This document shows, piece after piece, positions 4,219-40,188 of a DNA stretch of 64,000 bases. Origin of the DNA: Clostridia bacterium (lineage in GTDB: Bacteria; Bacillota; TC1; UBA5767); the NCBI GenBank assembly GCA_016887505.1, contig CP069393.1, forward strand, positions 2,379,001 through 2,443,000. Direction: 5' to 3'. The notes beneath the pieces were generated by a model. The model worked only from the letters and a program-made list of their open reading frames with translations. It did not search any database and was not told the DNA's origin. Every line of letters begins with the position of its first letter. Position 1 is the stretch's first letter. A program made the translations under genes and the position numbers.

Positions 4219-4229
4219 GAAGTAAAGTG

Positions 4230-4267
4230 TAACGCGCATCCAATGAAAGGATGCGCGTTATTTTTTA
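4230..4267 (+). terminator. Rho-independent terminator after ptsI
   Basis: A perfect 12-bp stem (TAACGCGCATCC with its complement) encloses a 7-nt AATGAAA loop and is followed by a run of six T. It lies 11 bp past the enzyme I stop codon and separates the PTS/catabolic operon from the glycan locus. Confidence 0.92.
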
Positions 4268-4368: not shown

Positions 4369-4456
4369 TAAAGAATCAATCCAATTGGAGCACTGCCGTC
4401 CGATTGTGGGTGCAATCAACGGAGCTAGCAGTAGAAATGAATTTGGAGGAAATGCG

Positions 4457-5134
4457 ATGAAACCTGTAGTACTATATGGAACGTCTCCAGTAAGCCAGAT
4501 GGTCTTTCTGGATGCAAAAGAACAGGAAGATTTCCAGATTGTTGCGGCCACCCAAAAAAGGGAGGACAGAAACAATGATACCTTTTTCGACATACCCCTA
4601 CTTGATTTTCATACCATAACCAAGGAGTATCCGCCCGAAGACTACGATATGCTACTCGCCATATCCCATATCACTGAAATCCGCTATCGCCAAAGACTAT
4701 TTGAAACGATCAAGCAAATGGGCTATACCATGCGAAACTATATCAGCCCAAGAGCTGACGTAAAAGATACAAGCAATTGGGGAGAAAACAATATTGTGAT
4801 GGCCGGTGCGCACGTTGGCGTCAACGGAATCCTGGGGGACAACAACCTGATTCGCCAGAATACCTATTTGGGTCACAACTTCATAGTGGGTGACAACAAT
4901 GTAATCAGCCCCGGATGCTGCATCGCTGGTGACGTCGTCGTGAAAGATGGATGTTATTTCGGTTTAAATGCAACCGTGGTAGATTACTTGACTGTGGAAA
5001 CCGAGACGCTAGTGGGTGCGGGTGCCGTCGTCATTAAGAATACGGAGCCCTATTCAACCAATGTGGGCAATCCCAGTAGAGTCATTGCCTACCATTCAGA
5101 AAAAGGCGTTCAGGTGGTGCCCAGACATGGATAA
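4457..5134 (+). CDS. NeuD/PglD-like sugar O-/N-acyltransferase
   Basis: This is a 225-residue protein. I chose ATG 4457 over an in-frame upstream ATG (4385) because GGAGGA sits correctly before it and the protein then starts with the family's nucleotide-binding-like strand (MKPVVLYGTSP). The N-terminal 90 residues resemble the PglD/NeuD Rossmann-like substrate domain. From about residue 95 there are left-handed beta-helix hexapeptide repeats (for example NIVMAGAHVGVNGILGDNN) ending in the usual NPSRVI segment. Relatives acetylate amino-sugar nucleotides or sialic-type sugars using acetyl-CoA. The last 8 bp overlap the BKACE gene, implying coupled translation. Confidence 0.83.
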   Translation: MKPVVLYGTSPVSQMVFLDAKEQEDFQIVAATQKREDRNNDTFFDIPLLDFHTITKEYPPEDYDMLLAISHITEIRYRQRLFETIKQMGYTMRNYISPRADVKDTSNWGENNIVMAGAHVGVNGILGDNNLIRQNTYLGHNFIVGDNNVISPGCCIAGDVVVKDGCYFGLNATVVDYLTVETETLVGAGAVVIKNTEPYSTNVGNPSRVIAYHSEKGVQVVPRHG

Positions 5135-5990
5135 AATTATTGTGAATTTTGCACCAACAGGACTTATACCCGGAAAAAAAGAGAATCCCCATACCCCAAT
5201 ATCTGTTTCAGAAATCACCGAAGAAGTGCTAATGGCCTATGAAATGGGAATTAGCATGGTCCATCTGCATGCGAGGGATGAAAAGAGTGGAGCACCCTGC
5301 TACAAGATGGAAACCTATGCCAAAATCATTGAGAATATTCGAAAAGATGCTCCTGACCTAGTCATCGGTGTATCCACCAGTGGCCGTTTTTTCTCCGATA
5401 TTGCGAAGCGTATGGAGGTTTTGGAACTTACCGGTAGGCAAAAGCCAGATATGGCGAGCTTAACTCTAAGTTCTCTTAATTTTAACAAGCAAGAAAGTGT
5501 GAACAGTCCTGAACATATCCAAATGCTGGCCCAAGGCATGAAAAAGCGCCAGATTAAACCTGAACTAGAAGCGTTTGATACCGGCATGATTAACTATGCC
5601 AAGTATCTGGCCAAAAAGGGTTGGATTGAACCACCCTACTATTTTAATCTCATTTTTGGAAATATCGCCTGTGCCCAGGCCGATCTTTTACATACAGCAG
5701 TCATGATCAATGAGCTTCCGGATGAATCCTTCTATTCTCTAGGCGGCGTAGGCAATGCACAGCTTAAAATGAACTCTTTAGGCATTGCCATGGGATGTGG
5801 CATACGAATCGGTATGGAGGATAACTATTGGTATGACGCCAACAGAAGGGTCTTAGCGACCAATCGTATGCTACTTCAGCGCATTCACAGTATTGCCAAG
5901 GCCAATGAGAGAACCCTTATGTCTCCATCTGAATTGCGCTTGGCCTTGGGTCTTAAAAAGGGCTATGGTGAGTATGGAAAAAAATACTAG
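5127..5990 (+). CDS. BKACE-family beta-keto acid cleavage enzyme (DUF849)
   Basis: This 287-residue protein uses ATG 5127, inside the end of the acyltransferase gene. BKACE enzymes are zinc TIM barrels that cleave or condense beta-keto acids with acetyl-CoA, Kce of lysine fermentation being the type case. Zinc ligands are visible as HLHARD (His46, His48) and Glu231 in GMEDN. The neighbouring Arg227 and Asp232 match the catalytic arginine and aspartate of Kce within one residue. Start (VNFAPTG), middle (PELEAFDTG) and end are all typical. What is odd is the setting: the only neighbours are glycan genes, and no lysine-fermentation genes are near. It may make or use an acyl group for a sugar, but that is inference. 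Confidence 0.85.
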   Translation: MDKIIVNFAPTGLIPGKKENPHTPISVSEITEEVLMAYEMGISMVHLHARDEKSGAPCYKMETYAKIIENIRKDAPDLVIGVSTSGRFFSDIAKRMEVLELTGRQKPDMASLTLSSLNFNKQESVNSPEHIQMLAQGMKKRQIKPELEAFDTGMINYAKYLAKKGWIEPPYYFNLIFGNIACAQADLLHTAVMINELPDESFYSLGGVGNAQLKMNSLGIAMGCGIRIGMEDNYWYDANRRVLATNRMLLQRIHSIAKANERTLMSPSELRLALGLKKGYGEYGKKY

Positions 5991-6049: not shown

Positions 6050-7141
6050 ATGAAGAGAGTGGCGCATGTAATCGGCCAGATGGGTATTGGTGGGGTCGAA
6101 ACTGTCTTACTGAATCTTTATCGGAAGCTAGATAAAGAAGCAATTCAGTTTGATTTCATCGTGCACAAAAAAGAAGAACAAGCCTATGACCAGGAAATCT
6201 TAGGGCTGGGTGGACATATTTACTATGTTTGTCCAAAGAAGAAAAATTTGTACCTGAATTTGAAACAGACGACAGAAATACTAAAAGGCTATGACGCAGT
6301 GCATATCCACCTATCTAGTGCCATTGGAGTTTTAGATGGTTTATGCGCTATGAAGGCGGGGGTTAGAGTGCGGATCCTACATACCCACAACAGTAGCTCC
6401 AAAGGCCTACTGCGCAGGTGGGGAAACTGGCTCCTAAAACCCTTGGTACCCCTGGTTGCAACAGACCTGCTAGCCTGTTCAAACAATTCGGCCCGCTATA
6501 TGTTTCCCAAACGAGTTCTTACGTTTGACAACTACCACATCCTGAACAATGGCATAGATACGGCGCGCTTTGCCTACAACCCATTCATCCGTGAAGAAAC
6601 CCGTAGCAGTTTAGGCATTGTGGGTTGTCCTACCGTGGTGCAGGTTGGTCGCCTTTGTGCGGCAAAAAATTACGGATTTACCTTGGAAGCCTTTGCAGAG
6701 ACCAAGAAAAAACTACCGGAGGCCGTGCTACTGCTAGTCGGAGATGGTCCCTTCATGGAAGACCTGAAAAGAAGGGTGAAAGAGCTGGGGCTATCTGGCG
6801 CAGTATATTTTTTGGGAATCCGACGAGATGTAAACCAGTTGCTCTTTGCAGCAGATCTATTTGTTATGCCTTCAGTATATGAAGGGTTTCCCGGAGCAGG
6901 TGTTGAAGCCCAAGCTTCCGGCATAAAGTGCCTTTTTTCAGACCGGGTGACGGAGTCAATCTGCTTGATACCAGAAAACTGCGAGAGGCTTTCCATCGAT
7001 GGAAAAGCAGAAATTTGGAGTGAGAAGATGACTCGCATTTTAGGGGATGGATACGAAAGACAGGACCAAAGCAGGCGTGTGCGAGAGGCCGGATACGATA
7101 TAGGAGATATTTGCACAGAATTGGTTAAGATTTACGACTAG
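6050..7141 (+). CDS. Glycosyltransferase family 4 (EpsF-like)
   Basis: This is a 363-residue GT-B glycosyltransferase. ATG 6050 is preferred over an in-frame ATG 48 bp upstream because the conserved N-terminus (MKRVAHVIGQMGIGGVE) begins there, though the ribosome site is modest. The C-terminal nucleotide-sugar domain is clear, with QVGRLCAAKNYG and the acceptor-loop motif MPSVYEGFPGAGVEAQASG carrying the conserved glutamates. It likely adds a sugar from a UDP or GDP donor to a lipid-linked glycan on the cytoplasmic face. Donor and linkage cannot be read from sequence. Confidence 0.85.
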   Translation: MKRVAHVIGQMGIGGVETVLLNLYRKLDKEAIQFDFIVHKKEEQAYDQEILGLGGHIYYVCPKKKNLYLNLKQTTEILKGYDAVHIHLSSAIGVLDGLCAMKAGVRVRILHTHNSSSKGLLRRWGNWLLKPLVPLVATDLLACSNNSARYMFPKRVLTFDNYHILNNGIDTARFAYNPFIREETRSSLGIVGCPTVVQVGRLCAAKNYGFTLEAFAETKKKLPEAVLLLVGDGPFMEDLKRRVKELGLSGAVYFLGIRRDVNQLLFAADLFVMPSVYEGFPGAGVEAQASGIKCLFSDRVTESICLIPENCERLSIDGKAEIWSEKMTRILGDGYERQDQSRRVREAGYDIGDICTELVKIYD

Positions 7142-7169: not shown

Positions 7170-8228
7170 ATGACGCATGACAATTATGAAAAAGTACTCA
7201 CTAGATATATACGAGTAAGAGATCTAAAAAAATATGAAGAAGATTGGAATAGCTTGTTTGATGCCAATCCAGATCTGAGTCCGTACCAATCCTTTCGATT
7301 TAATACGATAGCGCAGCAATTTTCTCCGTTTAGTCCCAGACGCATCCTCTTGGAGCCAATATTTTTTCTATTCTACAATTCCAAGGGAGTTTGTCGCCTG
7401 ATTGCGCCCCTGTATAAAGGTAGGGGGTGGAAGAAACATACGGTCCGACTTTTTACAGATGGCATGCCGGCAGGTTACTCGGACTTTATCTATCCAGCTG
7501 ACCTTAGCCTAGAAGAGTTTGGTACAGCGATTGAAATCATCAACAGGGAGCTGAAAAGTCCCACTTTTATGTTTAACAAAATTAATGAAACCAGTCGCTT
7601 GAATGCCTTTTTGCAAGAGGGTGATTTCAACTTGAAGAAGGTTGACCGAAGCCTTTGCTACCAAATTCCACTAGAAGAGTCCTTTGCCAGCTACTGGCAA
7701 GGACTCAGCAAGAATACACGTCAGAACATACGGACCAGTAAAAATAAGCTCATGCGAGAAAGATATACTTGGGAACTTGAGTTACATCAAGAAAAAGGAC
7801 TATCTAGGCATATTCAGAAGCGGATTATGCCAATATATATTAAGAGATATTTTGAACGGGAAGGCAGGAGCTTGCGCATGGTCTTACTTGCTTTATCCAA
7901 ACGGTTTTTGAATCCCATTACCTGGGCACTAAAAACATCAGAGCATTCCTTCTGTGCCATTTTAAACATTAATAAGAAACCTGCTGCCTTTTTGGCGGGC
8001 TTTGCACGAGACAATGGCCGCCTTGTGATTCCAATGTTGGCCATAGACAGTGACTGGGAGAAATTTAGCCCAGGTGGAATCCTGATTACAGAACTTATGG
8101 AAAGGCTACATGAGCTGAAAGGGTACACCAGTTTGGATCTGTCCCGAGGCGGGGAAGCGTATAAGAAACGCTACGGTGGTATACAACATTACAATTTCAG
8201 CTATGAGTTTACTCTAGAAGATAGATGA
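7170..8228 (+). CDS. BioF2/FemAB-like (CelD-type) acyltransferase
   Basis: This 352-residue protein has a duplicated GNAT-like layout. The second half carries the BioF2-domain hallmarks LSKNTRQNIRTSKNKL near residue 179 and a final SLDLSRGGEAYKKRYGG segment typical of CelD/BcsL and FemX-like proteins. Family members move acyl or aminoacyl groups onto polysaccharide or peptidoglycan precursors. It sits between a GT4 and a TupA-like ATP-grasp gene (8 bp downstream), which supports a role in attaching an amino acid or acyl group to the glycan. The true donor is unknown. An acetyl transfer role is equally possible. Confidence 0.74.
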   Translation: MTHDNYEKVLTRYIRVRDLKKYEEDWNSLFDANPDLSPYQSFRFNTIAQQFSPFSPRRILLEPIFFLFYNSKGVCRLIAPLYKGRGWKKHTVRLFTDGMPAGYSDFIYPADLSLEEFGTAIEIINRELKSPTFMFNKINETSRLNAFLQEGDFNLKKVDRSLCYQIPLEESFASYWQGLSKNTRQNIRTSKNKLMRERYTWELELHQEKGLSRHIQKRIMPIYIKRYFEREGRSLRMVLLALSKRFLNPITWALKTSEHSFCAILNINKKPAAFLAGFARDNGRLVIPMLAIDSDWEKFSPGGILITELMERLHELKGYTSLDLSRGGEAYKKRYGGIQHYNFSYEFTLEDR

Positions 8229-8236
8229 GGTGAAAT

Positions 8237-9226
8237 TTGGACTGGAAAATTCTAAAAAAAGAACTTAGATACCATAGTGCAAGAATGGCTGCGCGACTAT
8301 TGAGTGAGCGCTCCTTTCTAAGCTTCAAGTGTTTTGTGAGAAACAATACATGGCCAGACTGGGAGAATCCTAAGACCATCAATGACAAACTACGGTGGTT
8401 GATGCTCTATTACCGTGAAGAGAAGCTACATCAATTTGCGGATAAGTATTTGGTCCGGAACTATGTTCGAAGTAGAATAGGGAAAAAATATCTGACCGAG
8501 CTGCATGGGGTCTTTGAGGGAGTCGAACAAATAGATTTCGCGACCTTGCCGGACCAGTTTGTATTGAAAACCAATCATGGGTCGGGTTGGAACATAGTCT
8601 GTCTAGATAAAAGCAAGTTTGATGAAAAAAAGGCTAGAAGGCAATTAAATCGGTGGATGAAACGTGATTACTGGGCTCATACTGGTGAATGGGCTTACAA
8701 GGATATTCCGCGACTGATTCTGTGGGAACAGTTTCTTTGTGATCCCCTGCAAGGAAATCTACCTCGAGACTATAAGATTCATTGCTTTAGCGGTATACCT
8801 AGGTTTATCCAAGTCTTTGAGGATATGGATACGGAACTGAGACGTTCTATTTACGATTGCGACTGGAATCCATCCTCGATTAGTGAGGGACTAGCAGAAT
8901 GTAAAGAAGAGATTGAAAAGCCCCAAAATTTGGAAGAAATGCTCTGGGTTGCAAGGCAACTCTCACAAGGCCTTCCCTACGTTCGAATCGATTTGTACTG
9001 CATTGAAGATAAAATATATTTTGGTGAGATGACCCTAAATCATGATGCGGCAAGCTCACGATACAAGACAGAGGAAATGGCGATCCAAATTGGCTCTTGG
9101 TTGGAACTACCCGAAAAGAGCAAATTGGAAAAGGAAATGAGCCCTTGCCCGAATTTTGTTGGAAAGTGGTATTCAAAAGTCATAGCCAAGTTGACAATAG
9201 GCGGACGATTTGATGAAGTGGACTAG
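8237..9226 (+). CDS. TupA-like ATP-grasp protein
   Basis: This 329-residue protein probably starts at TTG 8237, with GAGGTG correctly spaced before it. It shows the TupA-like ATP-grasp pattern: KTINDKLRWLMLYYR near residue 45, FVLKTNHGSGWNI near 110, RDYKIHCFSG near 175 and VRIDLYCIEDKIYFGEMT near 250. The family is named for TupA of alkaliphilic Bacillus, which is involved in teichuronopeptide (polyglutamate plus glucuronate) synthesis. The locus also makes UDP-glucuronate, so a glycan carboxylate-amine ligation is a reasonable guess. Specific substrates are not visible. Confidence 0.8.
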   Translation: MDWKILKKELRYHSARMAARLLSERSFLSFKCFVRNNTWPDWENPKTINDKLRWLMLYYREEKLHQFADKYLVRNYVRSRIGKKYLTELHGVFEGVEQIDFATLPDQFVLKTNHGSGWNIVCLDKSKFDEKKARRQLNRWMKRDYWAHTGEWAYKDIPRLILWEQFLCDPLQGNLPRDYKIHCFSGIPRFIQVFEDMDTELRRSIYDCDWNPSSISEGLAECKEEIEKPQNLEEMLWVARQLSQGLPYVRIDLYCIEDKIYFGEMTLNHDAASSRYKTEEMAIQIGSWLELPEKSKLEKEMSPCPNFVGKWYSKVIAKLTIGGRFDEVD

Positions 9227-9269: not shown

Positions 9270-10625
9270 ATGAATACTTGGGTAAAAAAGATATACGATA
9301 GATCGCCCTACCAGGTGAAACGACAGATGGCAAACCTTGAGGCCTACCGGCGGATTCGTGTGAGGCGAGGTGGGGACTACCAGGCAGACTACCAGTCATT
9401 GGACCTGCTTGAGATGCTTCAAGAAAACCAAGAGGAAAAGCAACTTCTTCTTTTAAATGAACTGCTATCGTATATAGGTAAGAATATTCCATACTACCAG
9501 GAAAAAGACATACCAAAGCAAGTAGAATACTTGTCGAAGTTATCTGACCTGCCCATCATGAATAAAGAAATCTTACGCGGCGAAAGTGTGCGGTTAATCA
9601 ATGAAAACCACAGGTCAGCTCTTTGGAAGGGGTGGACCAGCGGGTCCACCGGTAGTAGTTTGCATTACCACCGGGATAAGCATTCTATGCGGTATGAATA
9701 TGCCTTGTATGAGCGATTATATGAGTTTGCCTGCCAGCAGGAAAACCCCATTCGCGCTCGCCTTTCCAATGTGGTCATCGCTAAACCGGGTGCCAAGCCA
9801 CCCTATTGGTTTTATCTTCGAGCGATGCGCCAGTTGCAGTGCTCCACCGACCATATTGAACCATCAACAGCAGCCCTCTATTTGGAGGCACTAGCAAGAT
9901 ACGGGGTAGTACTGGGAACGGGTTACACCTATTCTTGGCTTAGATTGGCAGAGGGCGTTTTAAACCTGAAGGAGAGGTCTAATCCACTAAAAGCGATTGT
10001 GACAGACAGCGAAGGCATTACCTTGTCCCAGAAAAAGGTGGTAGAGGAGGCTTTTTCTTGTCCGGTCTACCAGACCTATGGAAGTAGTGAACTAGGTATG
10101 GTGGCGGTGCAGTGCGAAAAAGGGCACTACCATCTGCTGGATAGAATCCATGTGGAAGTAGTGGACTCGCAAGGACGAGTCCTACCATATGGGGAAGAAG
10201 GAGAAATAGTAGTCACCGATTTAAGATCCTTTGATGCTCCGTTTTTACGGTACCGTTCTGGCGATTTGGGCATCTTGGAAAAAGACGGTTGTGGCTGCAA
10301 GTGGAAGGGACCTTATCTTTCCAGCATAGCAGGTCGTGTGGAAGACTATGTGGTGACGTCTAAAGGAGTTCGCATGACCAGAGTCAACCGAATCGTAAAA
10401 GGTGTTGAGGGCATTAAGGCTATGCAGATTGTCCAGGATAAGCCGGGTCAACTGCATGTTAGAGTGATTCCGGATGAGCACTTTTGTCCAGAAGAAATGA
10501 AAAAGATGCATAAAAAGGGCGAGAGCTTTATGGGAAAAATCGATTTTTCCTGGGAACTTGTGGAGACCTTGGAGACAACGGCTTCTGGCAAGGTGCGCTA
10601 CCTGATTCGCAATTTTGAAGCTTGA
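9270..10625 (+). CDS. CapK/PaaK-like adenylate-forming enzyme
   Basis: This 451-residue protein of the ANL adenylating superfamily resembles phenylacetate-CoA ligase and capsular CapK. The AMP-binding loop WTSGSTGSSLHYHRD lies near residue 125, the YGSSELGMVAVQ motif near 270, and the hinge aspartate region (FLRYRSGDLG) near 330. CapK-type proteins in capsule loci are thought to activate a small carboxylic acid for transfer to the polymer. Here it follows TupA-like and BioF2-like genes, so the three could activate and attach one acyl or aminoacyl group. The substrate is unknown. Confidence 0.82.
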   Translation: MNTWVKKIYDRSPYQVKRQMANLEAYRRIRVRRGGDYQADYQSLDLLEMLQENQEEKQLLLLNELLSYIGKNIPYYQEKDIPKQVEYLSKLSDLPIMNKEILRGESVRLINENHRSALWKGWTSGSTGSSLHYHRDKHSMRYEYALYERLYEFACQQENPIRARLSNVVIAKPGAKPPYWFYLRAMRQLQCSTDHIEPSTAALYLEALARYGVVLGTGYTYSWLRLAEGVLNLKERSNPLKAIVTDSEGITLSQKKVVEEAFSCPVYQTYGSSELGMVAVQCEKGHYHLLDRIHVEVVDSQGRVLPYGEEGEIVVTDLRSFDAPFLRYRSGDLGILEKDGCGCKWKGPYLSSIAGRVEDYVVTSKGVRMTRVNRIVKGVEGIKAMQIVQDKPGQLHVRVIPDEHFCPEEMKKMHKKGESFMGKIDFSWELVETLETTASGKVRYLIRNFEA

Positions 10626-11225: not shown

Positions 11226-12032
11226 TTATTTTTTTTGTAGAGCATAGACAGGACAAAGATTACTACAAGCAAAATCATTGGGAAAACGTACATCTAGAAT
11301 AGTAAAAAGGGGCGCGCAGAAAGCCTCAAAGGATTCTTGTTCTACATATGATATGGGGTAGGGGGTTATTGAACTCATAAGCTCTTGGTATTCATCACTT
11401 GTGATGATTCCTGCTTCAAAAAGGGCGAGCAATTCTCTGCAGTATATTTCAGTATTGACAGAACCTAGATTAGCATCTTGCCATAAAATCTGCAGATAGA
11501 AGGAAGATGTCCGGAATATGGGTTGACTAGGATGATTTGCTCTATGCCATGCCACTACTTCCGAAGGATTACCAAAGGGATTGGTATTGGCTATCTGGAT
11601 GCGCAAAAAGGCGTACCCACCAGGTAACAGCAAATCGTGAATACTGTTTAGGAAGTCATCGTATTGGTGGAGTGAAACCATGGATGTTGAACCGTCACCT
11701 AGGACGTAATTAAACTTTTCCGCTTGACCAGTGGATAGCCAATTACACTGTAGGAAGGACTCTTTCGGGTGCTGCCTGCAAAGTGTAGAAAAACTGTAGT
11801 AATGTTCATGCTTTAGGTCAAGACAACATACTGAGGAAGCATATTTTGCTCCTAGGCTTCGCAATTCAGGCGTGGAACCCAAGATGCCCCAATCTTTGTT
11901 GGAAGAAACATAGTCACCAATATACCCTTCATAAATAGCAAGCATCTGTTTGGAAGGGCGCACGGGTGGTTTTATGTTTTCCCAAGCTTTCGCGCAACTG
12001 TCTAGTGTTAGGATTTTTTTGGAATCAATCAA
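11226..12032 (-). CDS. SAM-dependent methyltransferase-like protein (paralogue A)
   Basis: This 268-residue protein probably starts at TTG 12032, with an AAGGAG site 7 nt upstream. Class I methyltransferase features are visible: WGILGSTPELRSLG as the glycine-rich first strand near residue 47, an acidic end of strand two (CCLDL), LGDGSTSMV near 112 and LLLPGGYAFLRIQ near 133. It is the same length as the protein at 13646-14452 and shares its PPxRPSKxMLAxYE start and GDGS motif, so the two are paralogues. Both flank an ATP-grasp gene on the opposite strand. A glycan or peptide methylation role is only inferred. Confidence 0.7.
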   Translation of the reverse strand: MIDSKKILTLDSCAKAWENIKPPVRPSKQMLAIYEGYIGDYVSSNKDWGILGSTPELRSLGAKYASSVCCLDLKHEHYYSFSTLCRQHPKESFLQCNWLSTGQAEKFNYVLGDGSTSMVSLHQYDDFLNSIHDLLLPGGYAFLRIQIANTNPFGNPSEVVAWHRANHPSQPIFRTSSFYLQILWQDANLGSVNTEIYCRELLALFEAGIITSDEYQELMSSITPYPISYVEQESFEAFCAPLFTILDVRFPNDFACSNLCPVYALQKK

Positions 12033-13645: not shown

Positions 13646-14452
13646 TTAGATTTTCTGTAATGTACATACCAGATTGTAATGACCACCAATAAAGTCGGTA
13701 GGGGCTTCAATTGACACGATGGTAAACTTATTCGCTACAAGAGCCTTTAATCTTTCTCGACTCGTACAATGTAAATCTACGTTCATAATGGGCGTATCCA
13801 ATTCTAAATACTCTTCTTTTGTGAGAACCCCATCGTGATATAAATCGTTTAGCCATTGGGAATAGTCCGCTCTTTCTATGGCCATGGTTTCTCTGTTTAG
13901 ACAGAGAATCCAGAAATCTGTCAACATGTTGACCAAAGGCTCCTTGCCCTTAACATTGGCCCGGAAAAAGTCTATGGCTTCTCGAGCAGAGGCAAAAGTC
14001 TTGCCATCACAAGAAAGGAGTCTAGTAATGATGTGTCCGCCTGGTTTAAGCATCCTGTGTACGTTGTCTAGAAAGGGGGGGTAGAGTTCTTGGGGCAGCA
14101 TAATCATGGAACCATCGCCCAAAATTAGGTCGAAGGCTTCTGGTAAATCTGCTTCTAGCCAATCGCATTCTACAAAGGTTTCTTCTTTTGGAGGACTGCA
14201 CAGCGGTGTCATTGCGGTAAATGAATTGGAATTGATATCCAGGCAGGCAAGAGGGCGGTTATACTTCCCTGCTAGCGTTCTGAGTTCTGGTGTACACCCG
14301 AGTAGACCCCACTCACCGGTTTGGTCATACTGCAGGCGCAGCAAACTGTTTTCATAAAGAGCTAACATTTCTTTGGATGGTCGTGCTGGTGGTATCATTG
14401 CTTTCCAAGAAGCTATGTACTCCGCATCAGACATATCGTAATAATCGCTCAT
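13646..14452 (-). CDS. SAM-dependent methyltransferase-like protein (paralogue B)
   Basis: This 268-residue protein has ATG 14452 preceded by AGAGGTG. It shows WGLLGCTPELRTLA near residue 48, a CLDINS strand-two end, ILGDGSMIMLP near 111 and MLKPGGHIITRLL near 133, in the order expected of a class I methyltransferase. It matches the protein at 11226-12032 in length, opening motif (PPARPSKEMLALYE) and layout, so a duplication is likely. The C-terminal 90 residues are also shared and may bind the substrate. The substrate is unknown. Confidence 0.72.
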   Translation of the reverse strand: MSDYYDMSDAEYIASWKAMIPPARPSKEMLALYENSLLRLQYDQTGEWGLLGCTPELRTLAGKYNRPLACLDINSNSFTAMTPLCSPPKEETFVECDWLEADLPEAFDLILGDGSMIMLPQELYPPFLDNVHRMLKPGGHIITRLLSCDGKTFASAREAIDFFRANVKGKEPLVNMLTDFWILCLNRETMAIERADYSQWLNDLYHDGVLTKEEYLELDTPIMNVDLHCTSRERLKALVANKFTIVSIEAPTDFIGGHYNLVCTLQKI

Positions 14453-15470: not shown

Positions 15471-16577
15471 ATGATTATTTTACATGTAACAGAGATGCTA
15501 ACCAAGGTGGCGAATGGACCACGATTTTCAGTAACGGGACTGACTAGTGCCCTGAACCGGATTGAGGGTGTGGAAGCAGGTGTTCTTAATGTTGGGTCAC
15601 ACTGGAAATTAGACAAAGAGGAGACAGATCGTTACGATTTTCCGTTTTTTGCACGCTATGAAAGGTTTAATAGTCTGCCAGCACCCTTTAATCATCCAGA
15701 CTTGATCGTCTTTCATGGGGTATATAAAAAACACTATCTATCTCTTTGGCAGGACCTTAGTGCGCAGGGGATTCCCTATGTGGTGACACCGCGGGTTAGT
15801 TTAACAAAACAGGCCCAGAGCCAGAAAGCCTGGAAGAAGCGACTGGCCAATAGATTGATTATGAATAGTTTTATCGGTCATGCGTCCGCAATACACTATT
15901 TGACCCCGGGAGAAATGGAAGCGTCTCTTCGAATTAATAATAAATATTTTATTGCTGGAAACGGCGTGCAGATACCAGAACTGCCAGTAGAGTCTAAGCG
16001 AGCAGGCAATCGGATGATTTTCATCGGGCGCTACGATATTCAGCATAAGGGGTTGGATGTCCTGATGCAGGCCATAAGCCATATTAAGGATGAACTACTT
16101 GCGCGTGGGCTGAGCATAGATTTATACGGATCAGGACGTAAGGTGCAACGGCTACTAGAACGTCAAGGAAAGGAAAAGGGCTTAGAAAACGTACTTAGCA
16201 TCCATGGCCCCATATTTGCTAGCGAAAAAGAAGAAGCATTACAAGAAGCGGATCTATTTCTTGCGTGTTCAAGATTTGAGGGTCTTCCTATGGCCTTGTT
16301 GGAAGCCATGAGCCATGGCGTTTGCGTCCTGGCGACACCAGGCACCAATATGGCCCAGGAAGTAGAAGAAACCCAAAGCGGTTGGCAGGTAAACCTAGAC
16401 TTCAAAGAGCTTGGTGCGGCTATTTTAAAAGCCTTTGAAGATAAGGAAGAACTAGCTAGAAGAGGACTGAATGCACGAAGGCTAGCAAGTGAAGAATATA
16501 ACTGGGACCGGATAGCAGAATTAACCTTGGCTGAATACCAAAAACTATTACAAGAACGCACCGGGGCAGTGAAGTGA
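15471..16577 (+). CDS. Glycosyltransferase family 4
   Basis: This 368-residue GT-B enzyme is preceded by TGGAGG. The N-terminal acceptor domain starts MIILHVTEML with a short glycine loop. The C-terminal donor domain includes MIFIGRYDIQHKGLDVL near residue 182 and the family motif CSRFEGLPMALLEAMSHG near 264 with both conserved glutamates. The stop codon overlaps the GTG start of the sulfotransferase gene, so the two are translationally coupled. This suggests that the sugar added here, or its neighbour, becomes sulfated. Donor and linkage are unknown. Confidence 0.87.
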   Translation: MIILHVTEMLTKVANGPRFSVTGLTSALNRIEGVEAGVLNVGSHWKLDKEETDRYDFPFFARYERFNSLPAPFNHPDLIVFHGVYKKHYLSLWQDLSAQGIPYVVTPRVSLTKQAQSQKAWKKRLANRLIMNSFIGHASAIHYLTPGEMEASLRINNKYFIAGNGVQIPELPVESKRAGNRMIFIGRYDIQHKGLDVLMQAISHIKDELLARGLSIDLYGSGRKVQRLLERQGKEKGLENVLSIHGPIFASEKEEALQEADLFLACSRFEGLPMALLEAMSHGVCVLATPGTNMAQEVEETQSGWQVNLDFKELGAAILKAFEDKEELARRGLNARRLASEEYNWDRIAELTLAEYQKLLQERTGAVK

Positions 16578-17551
16578 TACCACGAACCCCAATCTTTATA
16601 GGAGGATGTGAACGTAGTGGAACGACGATGCTAGGTTCCTATCTAGGAAAACATCCTGCCCTCTTGGTAACCCCTGAGTCATTGTTCAAAACAGAGCTAA
16701 TGCGACGCATGTCTCTACAGGGCGCGCTGGACACCCAGGCGACAGTAGCCTATCTACGCAGGAGCAAAGGCATACAACTGTGGGAAATACCACTAGATAA
16801 ACTGGAATCCGCTCTACAAGAAGAAAAGGAAATTGGCTTTCAAAAGCTGATGGATCTCCTATTGGATTTATTCCAAGAAAATATGGGGTTTGAAGCCACA
16901 AGCTATTGGGTGGATCACACGCCCCACAACATGCGTCTTGGGATTCGGCTCAGCCAATTGTATCCAGAGGCAAAGTTTATCCATATTGTCCGCGATGGCC
17001 GGGGTGTAGCCTATTCATACCGTGGAGTCAATTGGGGTCCCTATGAGACATATTATTCAGCCAAAGACTGGGTATATAAGGTGGGATTTGGCTTGGCCTT
17101 GGCCCATCAGCTGGGTCCGAAACGGGTTCTATTGACCCGCTACGAGGATATTTTGGCTGAGCCAGCCAAGGAAATTTCTCGCATATGCTCATTTCTAGGT
17201 CTGGATTACGAAATACTCGCCGCTGGCCAAGAACGTTTCCAGGTTCCTTTTTACTCAAAGCAGCAACATGCCTTGGTGGGAAAGGGCCTGAAAAAAGAAA
17301 ACAAGGACCGTTGGCGCAAGGGGCTATCCAAAAGAGACCTTCAAGTGTTTGAATCTGTGGCCATGGATTTTCTACCCAGCTTGGGCTATAGCCTTCTTTA
17401 TGAAGACAATCCAATAAGAATAAGTCTTGGGTCAAAAATTATCTTTAGATGGAAAGAAGACGCAAGAAATATAGAAAAGCACTACAAGAAAAGAAAAATG
17501 GAGCGTAGGATACGTCGTGAGATGTCGAAGGCCCCAAGGAAAGATGAATAA
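16574..17551 (+). CDS. PAPS-dependent sulfotransferase (PF13469 type)
   Basis: This 325-residue protein has a GTG start overlapping the previous stop by 4 bp. The 5'-phosphosulfate loop GGCERSGTTML is at residues 10-20. The 3'-phosphate-binding motif IHIVRDGRGVAYSYRG follows near 137-151, with Arg140 and Ser148. This is the usual fold of enzymes that move sulfate from PAPS to carbohydrate hydroxyls. CysD, CysNC and CysQ are encoded 20 kb downstream in the same locus, which supplies the donor pathway. It carries a basic C-terminal tail (residues 285-325) with no membrane segment, so it probably acts in the cytoplasm on lipid-linked intermediates. Confidence 0.85.
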   Translation: MIPRTPIFIGGCERSGTTMLGSYLGKHPALLVTPESLFKTELMRRMSLQGALDTQATVAYLRRSKGIQLWEIPLDKLESALQEEKEIGFQKLMDLLLDLFQENMGFEATSYWVDHTPHNMRLGIRLSQLYPEAKFIHIVRDGRGVAYSYRGVNWGPYETYYSAKDWVYKVGFGLALAHQLGPKRVLLTRYEDILAEPAKEISRICSFLGLDYEILAAGQERFQVPFYSKQQHALVGKGLKKENKDRWRKGLSKRDLQVFESVAMDFLPSLGYSLLYEDNPIRISLGSKIIFRWKEDARNIEKHYKKRKMERRIRREMSKAPRKDE

Positions 17552-33656: not shown

Positions 33657-35636
33657 ATGAGAAAGCTATTAATCCATATTGGCACCATGAAAACAGGAAC
33701 GAGCTCAATACAGGACTGTTTACACTCATCGGCTGCTGCGCTACGAAAAAAGGATATCTACTATTATCCGCAGATGCATCACAACAATCATAGTTTTTCC
33801 CCCTTGTTCAAGGAAAATCCTGCGTATTCATATGACTGGAAAAAGAACTATGGCTCTACGGATGTGGGCTGGCAAGTGCAACAACTCAAAAAGAAATGGG
33901 CTAGCTTGTGGAAAACCATGGAGCAGGGAACAGCCATCGTGTCGAGTGAAACTATGTCCTTTTATAGCTATGAAGATGTAGAAAGACTACGTTCCTTTGT
34001 AGGCCCCCTATTCGACCAGGTAACGGTGATTGTTTATTTTAGAGATCCTGGGAAATATATTCCCAGCATGTTGCAACAGGACATTAAGAATGGATATACT
34101 CCGTCGGATCTATCCTTTCTGGAGTATTACCGGGGCAGAAAAATTGACATACGATACAGGGAACTGCTCTTACGTTGGACGGCGAGTTTCGGTAGCGAAC
34201 ACGTCATAGTTCGTCCTTTCCAAAAGAAGTCGTTTTACGGTGGGGCTTTGGAAAGGGATTTCTTTTATCATGGTTGTGGAGTGGAAATTGAGCCGGAAGT
34301 AATCGGGTCAAACCGGAAGAATGAATCATTGAATCTTGAATCTGCCTTGTTTTTGTATGAACTGAATCGAAAGTATCCCACCATCAAGTCAGGACTGTTG
34401 AATGAAGAACGGGGGCTGGCGGGTAAGCCACTGCCAGCCAAGGTGTTTGCTGCCTTTCCGGGAAGAAAAATTGATATTCCCTTGCACTACGACCTACAGA
34501 CTCGAAAAAATATGCAAGCCCAGGTGCGCTATGTCAATCAATTTTTACCAGCAGAAGAAAGAATTGAATGCACTTTGCCGGAGGAGAAGGTAGAAGGTCA
34601 AGCTGACGCGGGGAGCCTGGATTTGCCGGCTTCTATTCTGGATACGGACTATTATGTAGAAATTATTAATGCCTACAACAAGTTGCTTGAAGATAAGAAT
34701 AAAAAGATTATGGAACTTGAAAACAGCCTGGAGGCGCCCAGGCGAAAAGCGGCTAAAAAATGGGATGTTGCAAAGGAATGGGGAAAAATAAAAAGATGGC
34801 CGGCAAGAGGTCTTAGCTGGATCCAATATCTACTTTTTAGAAATAGGGTAGATTTTGATGAAGAACTGTATAAGAACACCTATGGGGATATTGACTATTC
34901 GAGGATGCCTGCGATAAAGCATTTTTTTCTCTATGGGGCTGCTGAGGGACGCATACCTAGAAAAAGTATGAAACAAAAGGAAGGGGGCCTTCTTAACCCC
35001 CTAGTTCGAGAGAGGTTAATGCAACGTATCGGCAAACAAAAGGAATACTGCATTCGCGTTAAATGGACAGACTGTTTGGCGGGAGACTACCGCCTAGATG
35101 CGCTTGGTTTCCACAAGGGTTCGGTAACCTTGGTGCTGCCTTCTTTTTCCACCTATGTGTTTTGGACTCTTCAAAGCAGGGTGCTGGAGGATGAAACAGT
35201 AGATAAGATGAAAAAGGAGTATGTGCAGTTTGTGCAAACGGCGAAACGCCTAGTAGACGATACGGGGAGTGGGAAACTCATTACAGAACAATGTTTTAGT
35301 GGGTGCAGCACGGAAAATCCCATACAAGATTCAGTCCGGGTTGCCGCTCTACTGCAATATTGTCTTTCTAAGTGGTCGGATGGGGATACGGATATTTTTG
35401 GTCTTGCTGAGAATGTCTTGGAGGATTTGCGAGATACCTTGTATTCAAACAAGCTGATGGACAATATACAATTAGAAGCAGCCTTTAACCAAGCGGAACG
35501 CCAGATCCTGCAGGATGCGTTTGCTGGTGCATTTCAGATAAAGGAGCAATATCTGGAGGAAGCCGTATTTGTGGAATGGATGAATTGTCATAATAAGGCG
35601 CTGGAAATGGTTGGGGTGAACGATGAAGAAAAGTAA
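33657..35636 (+). CDS. Multidomain sulfotransferase-like protein
   Basis: This 659-residue protein has a sulfotransferase P-loop at residues 7-19 (HIGTMKTGTSSIQ). A 3'-phosphate motif follows near 125-138 (IVYFRDPGKYIPSML; Arg129, Ser137) and the domain ends near 340. A basic linker leads to a small module at 398-435 (FDEELYKNTYGDID, then HFFLYGAAEGRIPR). This pattern is also found attached to many surface-glycan glycosyltransferases. Residues 440-659 are unrecognised and helical. The protein shares the QQxIKNG and NxERGL segments with the next protein, so the N-terminal domains are paralogous. It likely sulfates the glycan using PAPS made by the downstream cys genes. Confidence 0.77.
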   Translation: MRKLLIHIGTMKTGTSSIQDCLHSSAAALRKKDIYYYPQMHHNNHSFSPLFKENPAYSYDWKKNYGSTDVGWQVQQLKKKWASLWKTMEQGTAIVSSETMSFYSYEDVERLRSFVGPLFDQVTVIVYFRDPGKYIPSMLQQDIKNGYTPSDLSFLEYYRGRKIDIRYRELLLRWTASFGSEHVIVRPFQKKSFYGGALERDFFYHGCGVEIEPEVIGSNRKNESLNLESALFLYELNRKYPTIKSGLLNEERGLAGKPLPAKVFAAFPGRKIDIPLHYDLQTRKNMQAQVRYVNQFLPAEERIECTLPEEKVEGQADAGSLDLPASILDTDYYVEIINAYNKLLEDKNKKIMELENSLEAPRRKAAKKWDVAKEWGKIKRWPARGLSWIQYLLFRNRVDFDEELYKNTYGDIDYSRMPAIKHFFLYGAAEGRIPRKSMKQKEGGLLNPLVRERLMQRIGKQKEYCIRVKWTDCLAGDYRLDALGFHKGSVTLVLPSFSTYVFWTLQSRVLEDETVDKMKKEYVQFVQTAKRLVDDTGSGKLITEQCFSGCSTENPIQDSVRVAALLQYCLSKWSDGDTDIFGLAENVLEDLRDTLYSNKLMDNIQLEAAFNQAERQILQDAFAGAFQIKEQYLEEAVFVEWMNCHNKALEMVGVNDEEK

Positions 35637-36636
35637 GAAGCTAATATTGCATATTGGGATGAACAAAGCAGGTTCATCTTCAATCCAATCTTTTCTAGCA
35701 AACAACGCAGCCCATTTGGAAAAAAACAATATTCACTACCCGGTCTCACTCCACCCTCAAAATAAAAGCATCTTTGCGACAATCCGGGCAGCGTGCACCA
35801 AACCAATCCAAAAGAAAATCTTGAATTATGCTGTAATGGAAGATTACTGGCATGGATTATGGATAAAAGAGTTCACCTCGAAAGAGGAAAATACCATCAT
35901 CTCCTCGGAACAATTGCTTTTCTTTAGCCAAGAGGAGATTCGCCGTTTGAAGACCATGCTTGGTCAATACTTTGAGCAAATCACGGTAATCTGTTATGTG
36001 CGCGATTTCGATTCCTTTGTTAATAGCTCCATTCAACAGCGCATCAAGAATGGTAGCGATAGCATCATTAAACAGATGAATACCCTAATCGACAACTGTG
36101 ATTACCGAAGGATTCTGAATTGGATGGAGATTTGTCCGGACTATGATTTTTGCCTTAGGCCCTTTCGCTGTGACGCTTTCTATAAGAAGGATTTGATTCA
36201 AGATTTTTTTCATAGCATAAAGTTGGATGTTTCTGGACTGGAAGAACGAATTGCCCCACACGACAATCCGTCGCTAGGCTTATATGCAGTTTTGTTTTTA
36301 GAAAAATACAATAAGAAGTATCCACTTATGAAAAAGAACAAACTAAATATGGAAAGAGGACTATGCCATGGTCGGATTCCCTTGCAAGTAATGGCTAGTG
36401 TGAAGGATCTACCCTTCCGGCTGGATATTGGGTATAGTCAAGAACAGGTGGATGAAATCAATGGGTATATTCAGCGAATAAACCGTTATCTATCCCCTAA
36501 TGATCAGCTAAAGTTACTGCATCCGAAAGAAGGAAGAATTGCTGAACAATTGACTACTAGGATACCGAAATCATTTTATCTTGAAGTATTTACTGCATAC
36601 AAGGCGTATCTAGAGAAAGAAGCGGACAGGAGCTAA
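35623..36636 (+). CDS. Sulfotransferase-like protein
   Basis: This 337-residue protein overlaps the previous gene by 14 bp. The phosphosulfate loop reads HIGMNKAGSSSIQ (residues 10-22), with the usual KTGT threonine replaced by serine. The 3'-phosphate motif is VICYVRDFDSFVNSSIQQ near 122. It aligns along its length with residues 1-340 of the upstream protein, including IKNG and LNMERGL, so it is a tandem duplicate without the C-terminal extension. The loop change could alter activity but serine is chemically similar. Its position before cysQ, cysD and cysNC supports PAPS use. Confidence 0.75.
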   Translation: MKKSKKLILHIGMNKAGSSSIQSFLANNAAHLEKNNIHYPVSLHPQNKSIFATIRAACTKPIQKKILNYAVMEDYWHGLWIKEFTSKEENTIISSEQLLFFSQEEIRRLKTMLGQYFEQITVICYVRDFDSFVNSSIQQRIKNGSDSIIKQMNTLIDNCDYRRILNWMEICPDYDFCLRPFRCDAFYKKDLIQDFFHSIKLDVSGLEERIAPHDNPSLGLYAVLFLEKYNKKYPLMKKNKLNMERGLCHGRIPLQVMASVKDLPFRLDIGYSQEQVDEINGYIQRINRYLSPNDQLKLLHPKEGRIAEQLTTRIPKSFYLEVFTAYKAYLEKEADRS

Positions 36637-36639
36637 ACC

Positions 36640-37428
36640 ATGGATAGAAAAACACAAGACCTGATGGATTGTATGACTGGTGCTGCCAAGAAGGCGGCAA
36701 GGGCGATTATGGATGTTTACCAGACAGATTTTCATGTAGACATGAAAGAAGATAATTCTCCACTGACCTTAGCGGATAGACGAGCAAATGACATTATTGT
36801 ATCCGTTCTAGAAAAAGCCTATCCGGAGTATGCGATTCTTTCGGAAGAGGGAAGGGACAATCCGGCAAGGCTTTTAAAGGAGTACTGCTTTGTGGTGGAC
36901 CCACTAGATGGTACCAAGGAATTTGTAAAAAGAAACGGACAATTCACTGTGAATATTGCCTTATGTCGACGGGGCTATCCCATAGCGGGCTTGATTTATG
37001 TGCCTGTAACAAAAGAACTATACTATGCTAGCGAATGCAATGGGGCCGTCTACAAGAATATGGGAACCGGCATAACAGAAAATATCCAAGTAAGCGAGCG
37101 CAAAACAAGCATTAGGGTGGTTTGCAGCCGGTCTCATGTCAGTGAAGAAGAGCAGAAATTATATCTTGAACATAAGGCGGAGATTCAGGAGATTAAACCG
37201 GTTGGCAGTTCCCTAAAGGGTTGTTTGGTGGCGAGGGGTCATGCGGACGTATATTACCGGTATGGATTTACCTCAGAGTGGGACACGGCGGCCATGCAGT
37301 GTATCGTGGAGGAAGCTGGAGGAATCTTTCGCCAAATGGATGGCAGCATCATGCACTACAATAGAGAAGATAGTTTGAATCGTAAAGGATTTTATATCGT
37401 CAACCGGAAAGAAAACATATGGTTGTAG
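36640..37428 (+). CDS. cysQ: 3'(2'),5'-bisphosphate nucleotidase
   Basis: This 262-residue enzyme of the FIG/IMPase superfamily shows the metal sites LSEEG near residue 67 and [16 protein letters not shown] near 87, and the terminal [17 protein letters not shown] near 214. The KEF after DPLDGT is characteristic of CysQ rather than inositol monophosphatase. It hydrolyses 3'-phosphoadenosine 5'-phosphate, the inhibitory by-product of sulfotransferases. It sits 3 bp after a sulfotransferase-like gene and just before cysD, exactly where a PAP-clearing enzyme is needed. Confidence 0.93.
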
Positions 37429-37436
37429 GAGGAAAT

Positions 37437-38327
37437 ATGACACATTTGGATCAGTTGGAAGCGGAAGCCATTTATATTATGAGAGAGGTGGCGGCGGAGT
37501 GCGAAAAACCGGTGATGCTTTATTCTGTGGGCAAGGATAGCTCGGTTATGCTGCATTTGGCTTTAAAGGCTTTTTATCCGGAGAAACCACCCTTTCCGTT
37601 TATGCATATCGATACGACTTGGAAGTTTAGGGAAATGATTGAATTTCGCGATCGCAAGGCCAAAGAATTGGGCATTGAGATGCTGGTATACACCAATCAA
37701 GAGGGCGTAGATAAAAATATCAACCCCTTTGACCATGGTGCAGCTTACACCGATATTATGAAGACCGAGGCTTTGAAGGCAGGGCTTAACAAGTATGGCT
37801 TTACAGCCGCGTTTGGTGGTGGACGGCGAGATGAGGAAAAATCCAGGGCCAAGGAACGCATATTTTCGTTTCGCAATTCAGCGCATGCTTGGGACCCGAA
37901 AAATCAAAGACCAGAAATGTGGAAACTATACAACACTAGAATCAACAAGGGAGAATCGATTCGCGTATTCCCCATTTCCAACTGGACAGAAAAAGATATT
38001 TGGCAATATATACGCCAAGAAAATATTGAGATAGTACCCTTGTATTTTGCCAAGGAAAGGCCAGTGATACACCGTGACGGCAATATCATTATGGTCGATG
38101 ATGAGCGCATGCGTATTTTGGCGCACGAAGAAGTAGTCGTAGAGAAGGTTCGGTTCCGGACCCTGGGCTGCTATCCCTTAACCGGTGGCTATGAATCGAA
38201 TGCAGATACCCTGGATAAGATTATCGAGGAAACCCTGATGGCCCTAACCTCAGAGCGGACCAGCAGGGTTATTGACCAAGAAGCGGCAGCAAGTATGGAG
38301 CGGCGCAAACGGGAGGGGTATTTCTAG
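37437..38327 (+). CDS. cysD: Sulfate adenylyltransferase subunit 2
   Basis: This 296-residue protein starts at ATG 37437 after TAGGAGGAAAT. An upstream in-frame start lies inside cysQ. The PP-loop [12 protein letters not shown] is at residues 30-41, followed by [17 protein letters not shown] and [21 protein letters not shown] split across residues 127-147. The C-terminal [10 protein letters not shown] and SERTSRVID are normal. It forms APS from sulfate and ATP with the GTPase CysN encoded immediately downstream. Confidence 0.96.
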
Positions 38328-38328
38328 G

Positions 38329-40188
38329 ATGGAACTGTTGAAATTTATAACTTGTGGTAGCGTGGATGATGGTAAGTCTACCTTGATTGGTCATATGCTC
38401 TACGATGCAAAACTGATTTTTACCGACCAGGAAAAAGCCCTGGAATTGGAAAGCCGTGTAGGAAGTAGAGATGGTGCCATTGACTATTCTCTTTTGCTCG
38501 ATGGGCTGATGGCTGAACGGGAACAGGGAATCACCATTGACGTTGCCTACCGATTCTTCTCCACGGATAAGAGATCCTTCATTGTGGCAGACTGCCCTGG
38601 GCATGAGCAGTATACCAGGAATATGGCCGTAGGTGCATCCTTTGCTGACCTAGCAGTTCTTTTAGTTGATGCAACGCAGGGAATTCAGCTGCAAACCAAA
38701 CGCCATGCCAGAATTTGTGCCTTGATGGGCATTAGGCATATCTTGCTTGCAGTCAACAAGATGGATTTGATTCATTATGACAAAAATCGTTTTGAAGAAA
38801 TCAAAAGGGAGTTTCAATCTTTTGCAGCCGTCTTTGACCTCGAGTCGTTACAGGTGATTCCTGTTTCTGCTACGGCAGGAGACAATGTGACTAATGTATC
38901 CAAAAACATGCCATGGTACGACAAATTGCCTCTCTTGCAAATACTAGAATCGATTGACGTCACCAAAAAAGAGCAAGAAAAAAGCTTTATCATGCCTGTG
39001 CAAAGAGTGTCCAGACCCAATCAACAATTCCGCGGCTTTCAAGGACAGATAGAATCAGGAACCATCCGGGTTGGAGATGAAGTCCTAAGTTTGCCCAGCC
39101 AGGAAAGGGCAAGGGTTAAGGACCTATACTTGGCGAATAAATGTGTTGATGAAGCTGGGCTGGGGCAGCCTGTGACCATACAGTTAGACAAAGAGGTGGA
39201 TGTTTCTCGGGGTTGTGTGCTTGCAAGTGATACCAAGGTACAACTGGCGGACCTTTTTGAGGCAAACTTGCTCTGGATGGATGATCATGAACTAGTAGAG
39301 GGAAGAAGTTATTTGATTAAATGTGGAACCAAGCTTCTTCCTGCCACCATATTTGAGATTAAATATAGGATTGATGTCCATACGGGAAAACAATTGCGGG
39401 TGGAACACCTAATCAAAAACGAAATCGGTGTTTGCACCATAGCCTTATCTGAAAATATGGTATTTGAGGAATTTCGGCACAACCAGACCCTAGGCTCCTT
39501 TATCTTGATGGACCGGGTGAGCAATATGACCTCAGCTTGTGGCACCATAAACCATTCAATGAGGCGTTCAACTAATGTTTTTTGGGAAAAGACCACCGTT
39601 ACGCCAGAAGTTCGAGCTAGGCAAAAAAATCAACAAGCGGGAACCATTTGGCTGACAGGATTATCCGGCTCCGGCAAATCCACCATCGCCAATGCCCTAG
39701 AAAGCAAGTTGATGCAGGCTGGAAAACATACCATGATTTTAGATGGGGATAATATTCGGCATGGCCTAAACCGGAATCTGGGATTTACGGAAGAGGACCG
39801 TATTGAAAACATTCGGAGGGTAGCTGAAGTAGCTAGGCTGATGAATGAAGCAGGACTCCTGGTTATGGTGGCCCTTATTTCACCCTACCGGGAAGACCGA
39901 GAGCAGGCAAGAACCATCGTTGGCAAGAACTTTTTGGAAGTCTATGTGGACACACCGATGGAAGTATGTGAAAAAAGGGATGTCAAGGGCTTATATCTAA
40001 AGGCTAGAAAGGGGGAAATCCCCAATTTTACTGGTATTAGCAGCCCCTACGAGGAGCCACTAAACCCGGATGTGCGCGTGGATACTAGTAGGATGGAACT
40101 ATCTGATATAGTCAAACAAATCGAACAGACCTTGCTAGCGCGAAGGGAGTGGACGCATTGCCACAAGGAAGAGAAGATAGAATCCTGA
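38329..40188 (+). CDS. cysNC: CysN-CysC fusion: sulfate adenylyltransferase GTPase plus APS kinase
   Basis: This 619-residue protein starts at ATG 38329 just after cysD. The N-terminal half is an EF-Tu-like GTPase: GSVDDGKSTLIG near residue 10, DCPGHEQYTRNMA near 87 and NKMD near 143. From about residue 435 an APS kinase domain begins, with P-loop TGLSGSGKSTIANAL near 443, DGDNIRHGLNRNLGF near 470 and the active-site ISPYREDREQAR near 520. It makes APS and then PAPS. The fused arrangement resembles NodQ, which supplies sulfate for Nod-factor sulfation. No PAPS reductase gene accompanies it. Confidence 0.95.
   Translation: MELLKFITCGSVDDGKSTLIGHMLYDAKLIFTDQEKALELESRVGSRDGAIDYSLLLDGLMAEREQGITIDVAYRFFSTDKRSFIVADCPGHEQYTRNMAVGASFADLAVLLVDATQGIQLQTKRHARICALMGIRHILLAVNKMDLIHYDKNRFEEIKREFQSFAAVFDLESLQVIPVSATAGDNVTNVSKNMPWYDKLPLLQILESIDVTKKEQEKSFIMPVQRVSRPNQQFRGFQGQIESGTIRVGDEVLSLPSQERARVKDLYLANKCVDEAGLGQPVTIQLDKEVDVSRGCVLASDTKVQLADLFEANLLWMDDHELVEGRSYLIKCGTKLLPATIFEIKYRIDVHTGKQLRVEHLIKNEIGVCTIALSENMVFEEFRHNQTLGSFILMDRVSNMTSACGTINHSMRRSTNVFWEKTTVTPEVRARQKNQQAGTIWLTGLSGSGKSTIANALESKLMQAGKHTMILDGDNIRHGLNRNLGFTEEDRIENIRRVAEVARLMNEAGLLVMVALISPYREDREQARTIVGKNFLEVYVDTPMEVCEKRDVKGLYLKARKGEIPNFTGISSPYEEPLNPDVRVDTSRMELSDIVKQIEQTLLARREWTHCHKEEKIES

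Follow-up and report, generated by a model that had tools for sequence, protein, structure and literature searches.

Work on BKACEs, the enzymes of the DUF849 family, has treated them as catabolic, and the default annotation for most of the family is that of lysine-fermentation enzymes. In Kce, residue Glu14 is reported to bind the 5-amino group of 3-keto-5-aminohexanoate, and the replacement of this residue in another BKACE has been tied to a different substrate (PMC10470551). The products of BKACEs are acyl-CoAs (PMC11961710, PMC6365646); D-glyceryl-CoA was proposed as such a product in deoxyribose catabolism (PMC6365646), which suggests that a range of acyl groups may be obtained from these enzymes. 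One DUF849 protein, BsfD, has a biosynthetic rather than a catabolic role: in flavophos biosynthesis it acts on a phosphonate and condenses without cleavage (PMC12871164). BsfD carries an insertion of ∼20 residues, and no acyltransferase partner has been described for it. On the acyltransferase side, the O-antigen locus of F. psychrophilum contains a pathway devoted to an acyl group next to a PglD homologue (PMC6519341), in which wfpG is flanked by wfpC-F, the genes for the 3,5-dihydroxyhexanoyl group of Qui4N. The predicted source of that acyl group is a set of type-II FAS-like enzymes that assemble it on an acyl carrier protein, and not a BKACE. In searches of open-licence papers, none describing a link between DUF849 and NeuD, or between Kce and polysaccharide biosynthesis or glycosyltransferases, was found among the hits read.

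The window analyzed here is a stretch of 64,000 nucleotides from a Clostridia bacterium (contig CP069393.1) with a genome of 2.56 Mb. As in the F. psychrophilum locus, a PglD-like gene in the window adjoins a gene that may be dedicated to its acyl group. A NeuD/PglD/VioB-like left-handed beta-helix acyltransferase of 225 aa (positions 4457–5134, forward strand; matches to TIGR03570 and PF00132) is followed on the same strand by a BKACE/DUF849 enzyme of 287 aa (5127–5990; PF05853), whose ATG lies at 5127 and whose stop codon ends at 5990. The preliminary description had reported an overlap of 8 bp between the two genes, and both the coordinates and the shared segment, ATGGATAA (5127–5134), which holds the start of the BKACE and the stop of the NeuD-like gene, were verified. 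The likely ribosome-binding sites are GGAGG (4445–4449) for the acyltransferase gene and, within the NeuD-like gene itself, AGGTGG (5112–5117) for the BKACE. An intrinsic-terminator-like hairpin on the forward strand (4229–4261), with a stem of 13 pairs followed by a T run, stands between the pair and the upstream gene for PTS enzyme I. Orthologues of the BKACE occur in both congeneric genomes and in one genome of the same order (75, 64 and 62% identity). Each of the three has a NeuD-like gene that runs into the BKACE start, and the overlap measures exactly 8 bp in L002 and L003, the two congeners, as it does in L063, L081 and L085.

Downstream of the pair and on the same strand are genes for a GT4 glycosyltransferase (6050–7141; PF00534/PF13439), a FemAB-like GNAT-domain protein (7170–8228; PF13480), a TupA-like ATP-grasp protein (8237–9226; PF14305) and a CapK/PaaK-like AMP-binding protein (9270–10625; PF00501), the last of which has a homologue in a congeneric NeuD-BKACE locus (L152:12539-13900). 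The pair thus stands at the head of a polysaccharide-type gene run. Just upstream of the pair, together with PTS enzyme I, are a DeoC/LacD-type aldolase, near the models for 2-amino-3,7-dideoxy-heptulosonate synthase, and then a zinc alcohol dehydrogenase (420–2249). Within the polysaccharide region, a sulfotransferase gene and inositol-phosphatase/CysQ-like, CysD-like and CysN/CysC-like genes (16574–17551 and 33657–40188) likely indicate a sulfated surface glycan in this Bacillota genome. Scattered round the NeuD-BKACE locus in this genus is a repeated family of methyltransferase-like proteins of ∼265 aa (motifs GCTPELRSLA and DLILGDG), found in the window on the reverse strand (11226–12032 and 13646–14452), in several copies in L152 and directly after the BKACE at L080:8833-9684; Pfam gave no match for the copy tested. 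The genome contains a single strong DegT gene, of the sugar-aminotransferase type, which lies in a different context ∼400 kb away from the pair if the contig is circular, which leaves a sugar as no more than a presumed acceptor in this organism.

The acyltransferase scored 153.5 bits against TIGR03570 in a full-length match, a near miss of the curated cut-off of 160.8. Its relatives in the PDB include VioB (7txp), PerB (4ea7) and PglD (3bss), and it shares with the PglD, VioB, PerB and NeuD sugar acyltransferases the left-handed beta-helix family and an aligned histidine. In the alignment, His140 corresponds to the histidine of VioB and is invariant in the four orthologues; we take this position to be the catalytic histidine of the beta-helix. 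Apart from its score, the window enzyme differs from these relatives in its adjoining gene, which is predicted to provide a donor other than acetyl-CoA.

The BKACE itself is a member of its family (255 bits against PF05853, cut-off 24.8), and it falls below the thresholds of three models for characterized functions. The best NCBIfam model was that of Kce (NF052387), with 222 bits against a cut-off of 382; the scores were also low for the 3-oxoadipate:acetyl-CoA BKACE (NF053568; 179 bits, cut-off 350) and the 3,5-dioxohexanoate BKACE (NF053538; 145 bits, cut-off 430). The AlphaFold model is a confident TIM barrel (pLDDT 92.5), closest by Foldseek to 3no5, 3chv, 3fa5 and Kce (2y7e), with TM scores of 0.86–0.90; a cis-epoxysuccinate hydrolase and the oxaloacetate-binding relative ObcA (4nnb) are also among the matches to this fold. 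The zinc ligands and catalytic set of Kce (His46, His48, Glu230, Arg226, Asp231 and Glu143) are all present. The residues that had been singled out from the sequence (His46, His48, Arg227, Glu231 and Asp232 in window numbering) are indeed retained and, together with Glu148, are invariant in all 79 members compared within the subfamily described below. By comparison of the sequences, however, an intact catalytic set does not amount to a canonical active site, since the positions of Kce Glu14, Gly84, Gly110 and His224 are changed, and the changes are fixed in the subfamily. Position 14 is Ile in the window and Ile or Leu in 77 of 77 sequences. Relative to canonical BKACEs, Gly84 is replaced by Ser85, Gly110 by Ser115 and His224 by Gly225; Arg87 is likewise fixed, as are Asn7, Pro10, Asn156, Tyr160, Asn174, Asn179 and Gln184. 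At the position of Kce Tyr145, all BKACEs are said in the BsfD preprint to have Tyr (PMC12871164), whereas Phe occupies it both in the window (Phe150) and in 33 of 37 canonical BKACEs, and the exchange, which does not discriminate for or against BsfD-type chemistry, was dropped as a sign of it.

Kce and the window enzyme share the fold (TM ∼0.89), the metal ligands and the catalytic Arg, Asp and Glu, but only 29% identity, and they differ at Glu14, Gly84, Gly110 and His224. The closest solved relative is 3no5 (33% identity), by NCBIfam a 3-oxoadipate-type BKACE (482 bits against NF053568, cut-off 350). Like the window enzyme it has Phe150, Arg at position 87 and a hydrophobic side chain at position 14, whereas the pocket differs at positions 85, 114, 115 and 225. 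The shared Arg87 and hydrophobic residue 14 hint faintly that the end of the acyl group may be polar or acidic. The likeness is a hint at enzymes of the 3-oxoadipate type and does not settle the substrate. Oxaloacetate, a common beta-keto acid that would give oxalyl-CoA, was also considered as a candidate substrate in view of ObcA.

More distant relatives were observed on two plasmids: a protein of 48% identity on pRSE21 of Salmonella serovar Karamoja (L163:8001-8870), which retains nearly the whole pocket signature and has no acyltransferase, and one of 40% on a plasmid of Streptomyces camelliae (L164:7989-8843). Both lie in riboflavin-type clusters with RibA, riboflavin synthase, a gamma-glutamyltransferase and a SAM methyltransferase, accompanied by RibD in the former and RosB in the latter. 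These clusters are possibly pathways for a flavin analogue or antimetabolite, comparable to flavophos and its BsfD.

The occurrence of the pairing was analyzed further with a four-sequence profile, applied to one genome per species of bacteria and archaea. Among the 145 relatives in all, 80 loci (79 contigs and the window) were kept, at 58–75% identity, as members of a tight subfamily (57–75%), distributed over Bacillota, Bacteroidota (mostly Flavobacteriaceae), Chloroflexota, Synergistota, Omnitrophota, Actinomycetota, Pseudomonadota, Thermodesulfobacteriota, Planctomycetota, Nitrospirota and others. In 71 of these loci an acyltransferase was the immediate neighbor on the same strand, with gaps ranging from an overlap to ∼150 bp, and in 76 it lay within three genes of the BKACE; none was detected at the fourth or fifth position on either side in the 80 loci by the profiles, which were derived from clusters of neighbors and recognize those families rather than every possible acyltransferase. 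By the same profiles, none of 37 canonical BKACEs, sampled as controls within the same phylum, had an acyltransferase neighbor; they adjoined genes of the 4HBT (Kal-like) and CoA-transferase families, the pattern that a catabolic role would predict. A Pfam tally of the directly adjacent proteins, made independently of the clusters, gave 38 GNAT and 21 Hexapep matches among 149 proteins in the subfamily, compared with 19 4HBT and 10 CoA_trans among 71 for the canonical enzymes. Chance adjacency is ruled out by the four near orthologues, all of which have the partner, and by the 71 of 80 loci as against none of the controls. At the level of the genes, a conserved functional pair is practically certain, and it is by no means peculiar to this genome, uniqueness being what the preliminary description had named as counting against its proposal.

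Clustering of the neighbors yielded four kinds of acyltransferase, namely the left-handed beta-helix type and three GNAT families. The beta-helix partner (NeuD/PglD or another hexapeptide protein) was found in ∼24 of the 80 loci, usually just upstream of the BKACE, while a GNAT of 215 aa followed just downstream in 44 loci; a GNAT of 358 aa (Acetyltransf_9) and one of 237 aa, the latter on the opposite strand, accounted for 4 loci each. The proposed neighborhood of DUF849 with NeuD/PglD is thus conserved as a pairing and needs correction as to the partner: the observation holds and generalizes to an acyltransferase, not specifically to NeuD, and GNAT partners were the commoner in the set found. 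Among the four loci lacking a partner, L073 ends at the edge of its contig and L069 contains a remnant of a GNAT gene after the BKACE (L069:8895-9212, in a Eudoraea MAG); none is present in L102 of the same genus, so the partner may be in the process of loss there. In most Flavobacteriaceae the partner is a GNAT, for which Foldseek gave generic GNAT matches and no clue to the acceptor, and the pair lies among housekeeping genes, outside glycan clusters. Elsewhere the NeuD-type pairs, to which L103 also belongs, are often accompanied by a DegT aminotransferase, a WbqC protein or a glycosyltransferase (L026, L042, L055, L076, L080, L084, L085 and L104), a setting in which a nucleotide amino sugar would be expected to undergo N-acylation. 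WbqC-family proteins (PF08889) occur near the NeuD-BKACE pair in L034, L042, L055, L068, L076, L084, L099 and L104, in many cases immediately ahead of the NeuD-type gene; they may be part of the same acylation pathway.

In a maximum-likelihood tree (quick search, with SH-aLRT support only), the subfamily formed one clade on a long branch, separated with full support from the canonical BKACEs. The type of partner changes about nine times on this tree, so that the BKACE is linked to the transfer of acyl groups rather than to a single operon passed down by descent. About nine viral contigs of IMG/VR carry a BKACE with a nearly intact signature, and the partner varies among them as well: a GNAT of the 215-aa type in L157, L159 and L160, the 358-aa GNAT in L153–L156 (three of the four near-identical) and a NeuD-type enzyme in L161, with no partner in L158. 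In L157 the pair lies beside terminase and portal genes, among glycosyltransferases. A tblastn search of cultured phages gave no member of the subfamily. As only the two genes are present on the phage contigs, the beta-keto acid would probably be a common metabolite of the host.

On this evidence, we consider it reasonably probable that the pair is a cassette coupled at translation, with a BKACE that produces a dedicated acyl-CoA and a neighboring acyltransferase that passes on its acyl group. The zinc enzyme (His46, His48 and Glu231, with Arg227, Asp232 and Glu148) would condense a beta-keto acid with acetyl-CoA, and a retro-Claisen cleavage would yield acetoacetate and an acyl-CoA shorter by two carbons. 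The NeuD/PglD-type enzyme would then attach the acyl group to a sugar precursor at an amino (or hydroxyl) position, the precursor being presumed to belong to the surface polysaccharide encoded downstream; in other loci a GNAT would perform the transfer, and glycans would be the acceptors in the NeuD-type and phage loci. We infer the Claisen/retro-Claisen reaction, its direction towards the acyl-CoA, the uptake of that acyl-CoA by the acyltransferase and the sugar acceptor in this organism. The adjacency, the exchanges of partner, the recurrence in phages, the company of DegT, WbqC and glycosyltransferase genes, the invariant catalytic core within an altered and fixed pocket, and the fold all support the cassette, as do the F. 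psychrophilum precedent and the fact that BKACEs yield acyl-CoAs. The proposal that the pair makes an unusual acyl-CoA and places it on a sugar thus gains, in its first part, from the pairing across phyla and the repeated replacement of one acyltransferase family by an unrelated one; its second part proved too narrow, as the beta-helix partner is confined to the minority of loci given above and most Flavobacteriaceae pairs have a GNAT and lie outside glycan clusters. Several observations count against the cassette. The fold can support other chemistry, as in cis-epoxysuccinate hydrolase and in BsfD; the Flavobacteriaceae pairs have a housekeeping context, and the 48% relative in a riboflavin-type cluster has no acyltransferase. 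In the window's genome, besides the distant DegT gene, a family search of the whole genome found no PF01144 CoA-transferase and only weak thiolase matches, so that there is no obvious route for recycling acetoacetate, if it is made. Moreover, the donor of NeuD and GNAT enzymes is often plain acetyl-CoA.

In another reading both enzymes serve one pathway, the acyltransferase using acetyl-CoA on the sugar while the BKACE supplies or recycles something else, e.g., acetyl-CoA from acetoacetate in the reverse direction. The BKACE reaction is reversible in vitro (PMC11961710), yet acetyl-CoA is already abundant and a dedicated, co-transferred gene for it would be of no advantage, especially to phages, which makes this improbable. 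Somewhat less improbable, though still unlikely, is a reversed order of events, in which the acyltransferase acylates an amine first, from acetyl-CoA or another common acyl-CoA, and the BKACE then acts on the N-acylated, uncharged beta-keto acid or a related compound. Given the role of Glu14 (PMC10470551), an uncharged acylamino group would be in keeping with its loss, and the GNAT partners would allow such an acceptor; characterized NeuD/PglD-type members act on nucleotide sugars, however, the pair is often flanked by sugar aminotransferase and glycosyltransferase genes, and a single substrate would need to fit unrelated acyltransferase families. We also regard as unlikely, if the least so of the alternatives, that the BKACE forms a C-C bond (by a BsfD-like acetyl transfer) or catalyzes another reaction without cleavage, and thereby builds a precursor or acceptor instead of an acyl-CoA. 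The precedent of BsfD, the relatives in flavin-type biosynthetic clusters and the fixed changes to Ser85, Ser115 and Gly225 would agree with such a role, which leaves the near-constant acyltransferase partner unexplained and draws nothing from the Tyr-to-Phe exchange, Phe being usual in canonical BKACEs too.

The remaining alternative, a catabolic BKACE that breaks down lysine or keto acids and lies in a glycan island by coincidence, would follow from the family annotation as "3-keto-5-aminohexanoate cleavage" and from Kce being the best-matching model. The score is far below the Kce cut-off, Glu14 is replaced throughout the subfamily, and the neighbor is an acyltransferase, conserved across phyla, in place of Kal or CoA-transferase, with no lysine-fermentation genes nearby. 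Lysine 5,6-aminomutase (PF09043) is absent from the window's genome (G000) and from G001, G002 and G008, while it is present in all four tested genomes with a canonical Kce. Together with the lack of a CoA-transferase and the weak thiolase matches, this absence makes a catabolic role unlikely in general, and we give it very little credence. On the Kce score, the loss of Glu14 and the absence of the aminomutase, lysine fermentation was rejected among the candidate roles considered; judged from the sequences, that role is very unlikely for the window enzyme, and an activity restricted to 3-keto-5-aminohexanoate is unlikely, the other circumstance held to speak against the original proposal.

The dedicated acyl-CoA cassette is the reading that we favor. 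A wider version of it is put forward more tentatively, as a possibility: a mobile two-gene cassette, spread over many phyla and phages, in which the BKACE would turn a common beta-keto acid into an otherwise unavailable acyl-CoA and an interchangeable NeuD-type or GNAT enzyme would place it on glycans or other amines, an undescribed route of surface acylation based on a biosynthetic BKACE. This distinct branch of the BKACEs probably makes an unusual acyl group, with which sugars or other amines would be decorated. The compact two-gene system would lend itself to finding a new acyl-CoA by assay in vitro, and its four kinds of partner ease testing. If true, an acyltransferase-tied branch would give a biosynthetic role to genes automatically named "3-keto-5-aminohexanoate cleavage", and would point to an undescribed acyl group on glycans, whether bacterial or phage-directed.
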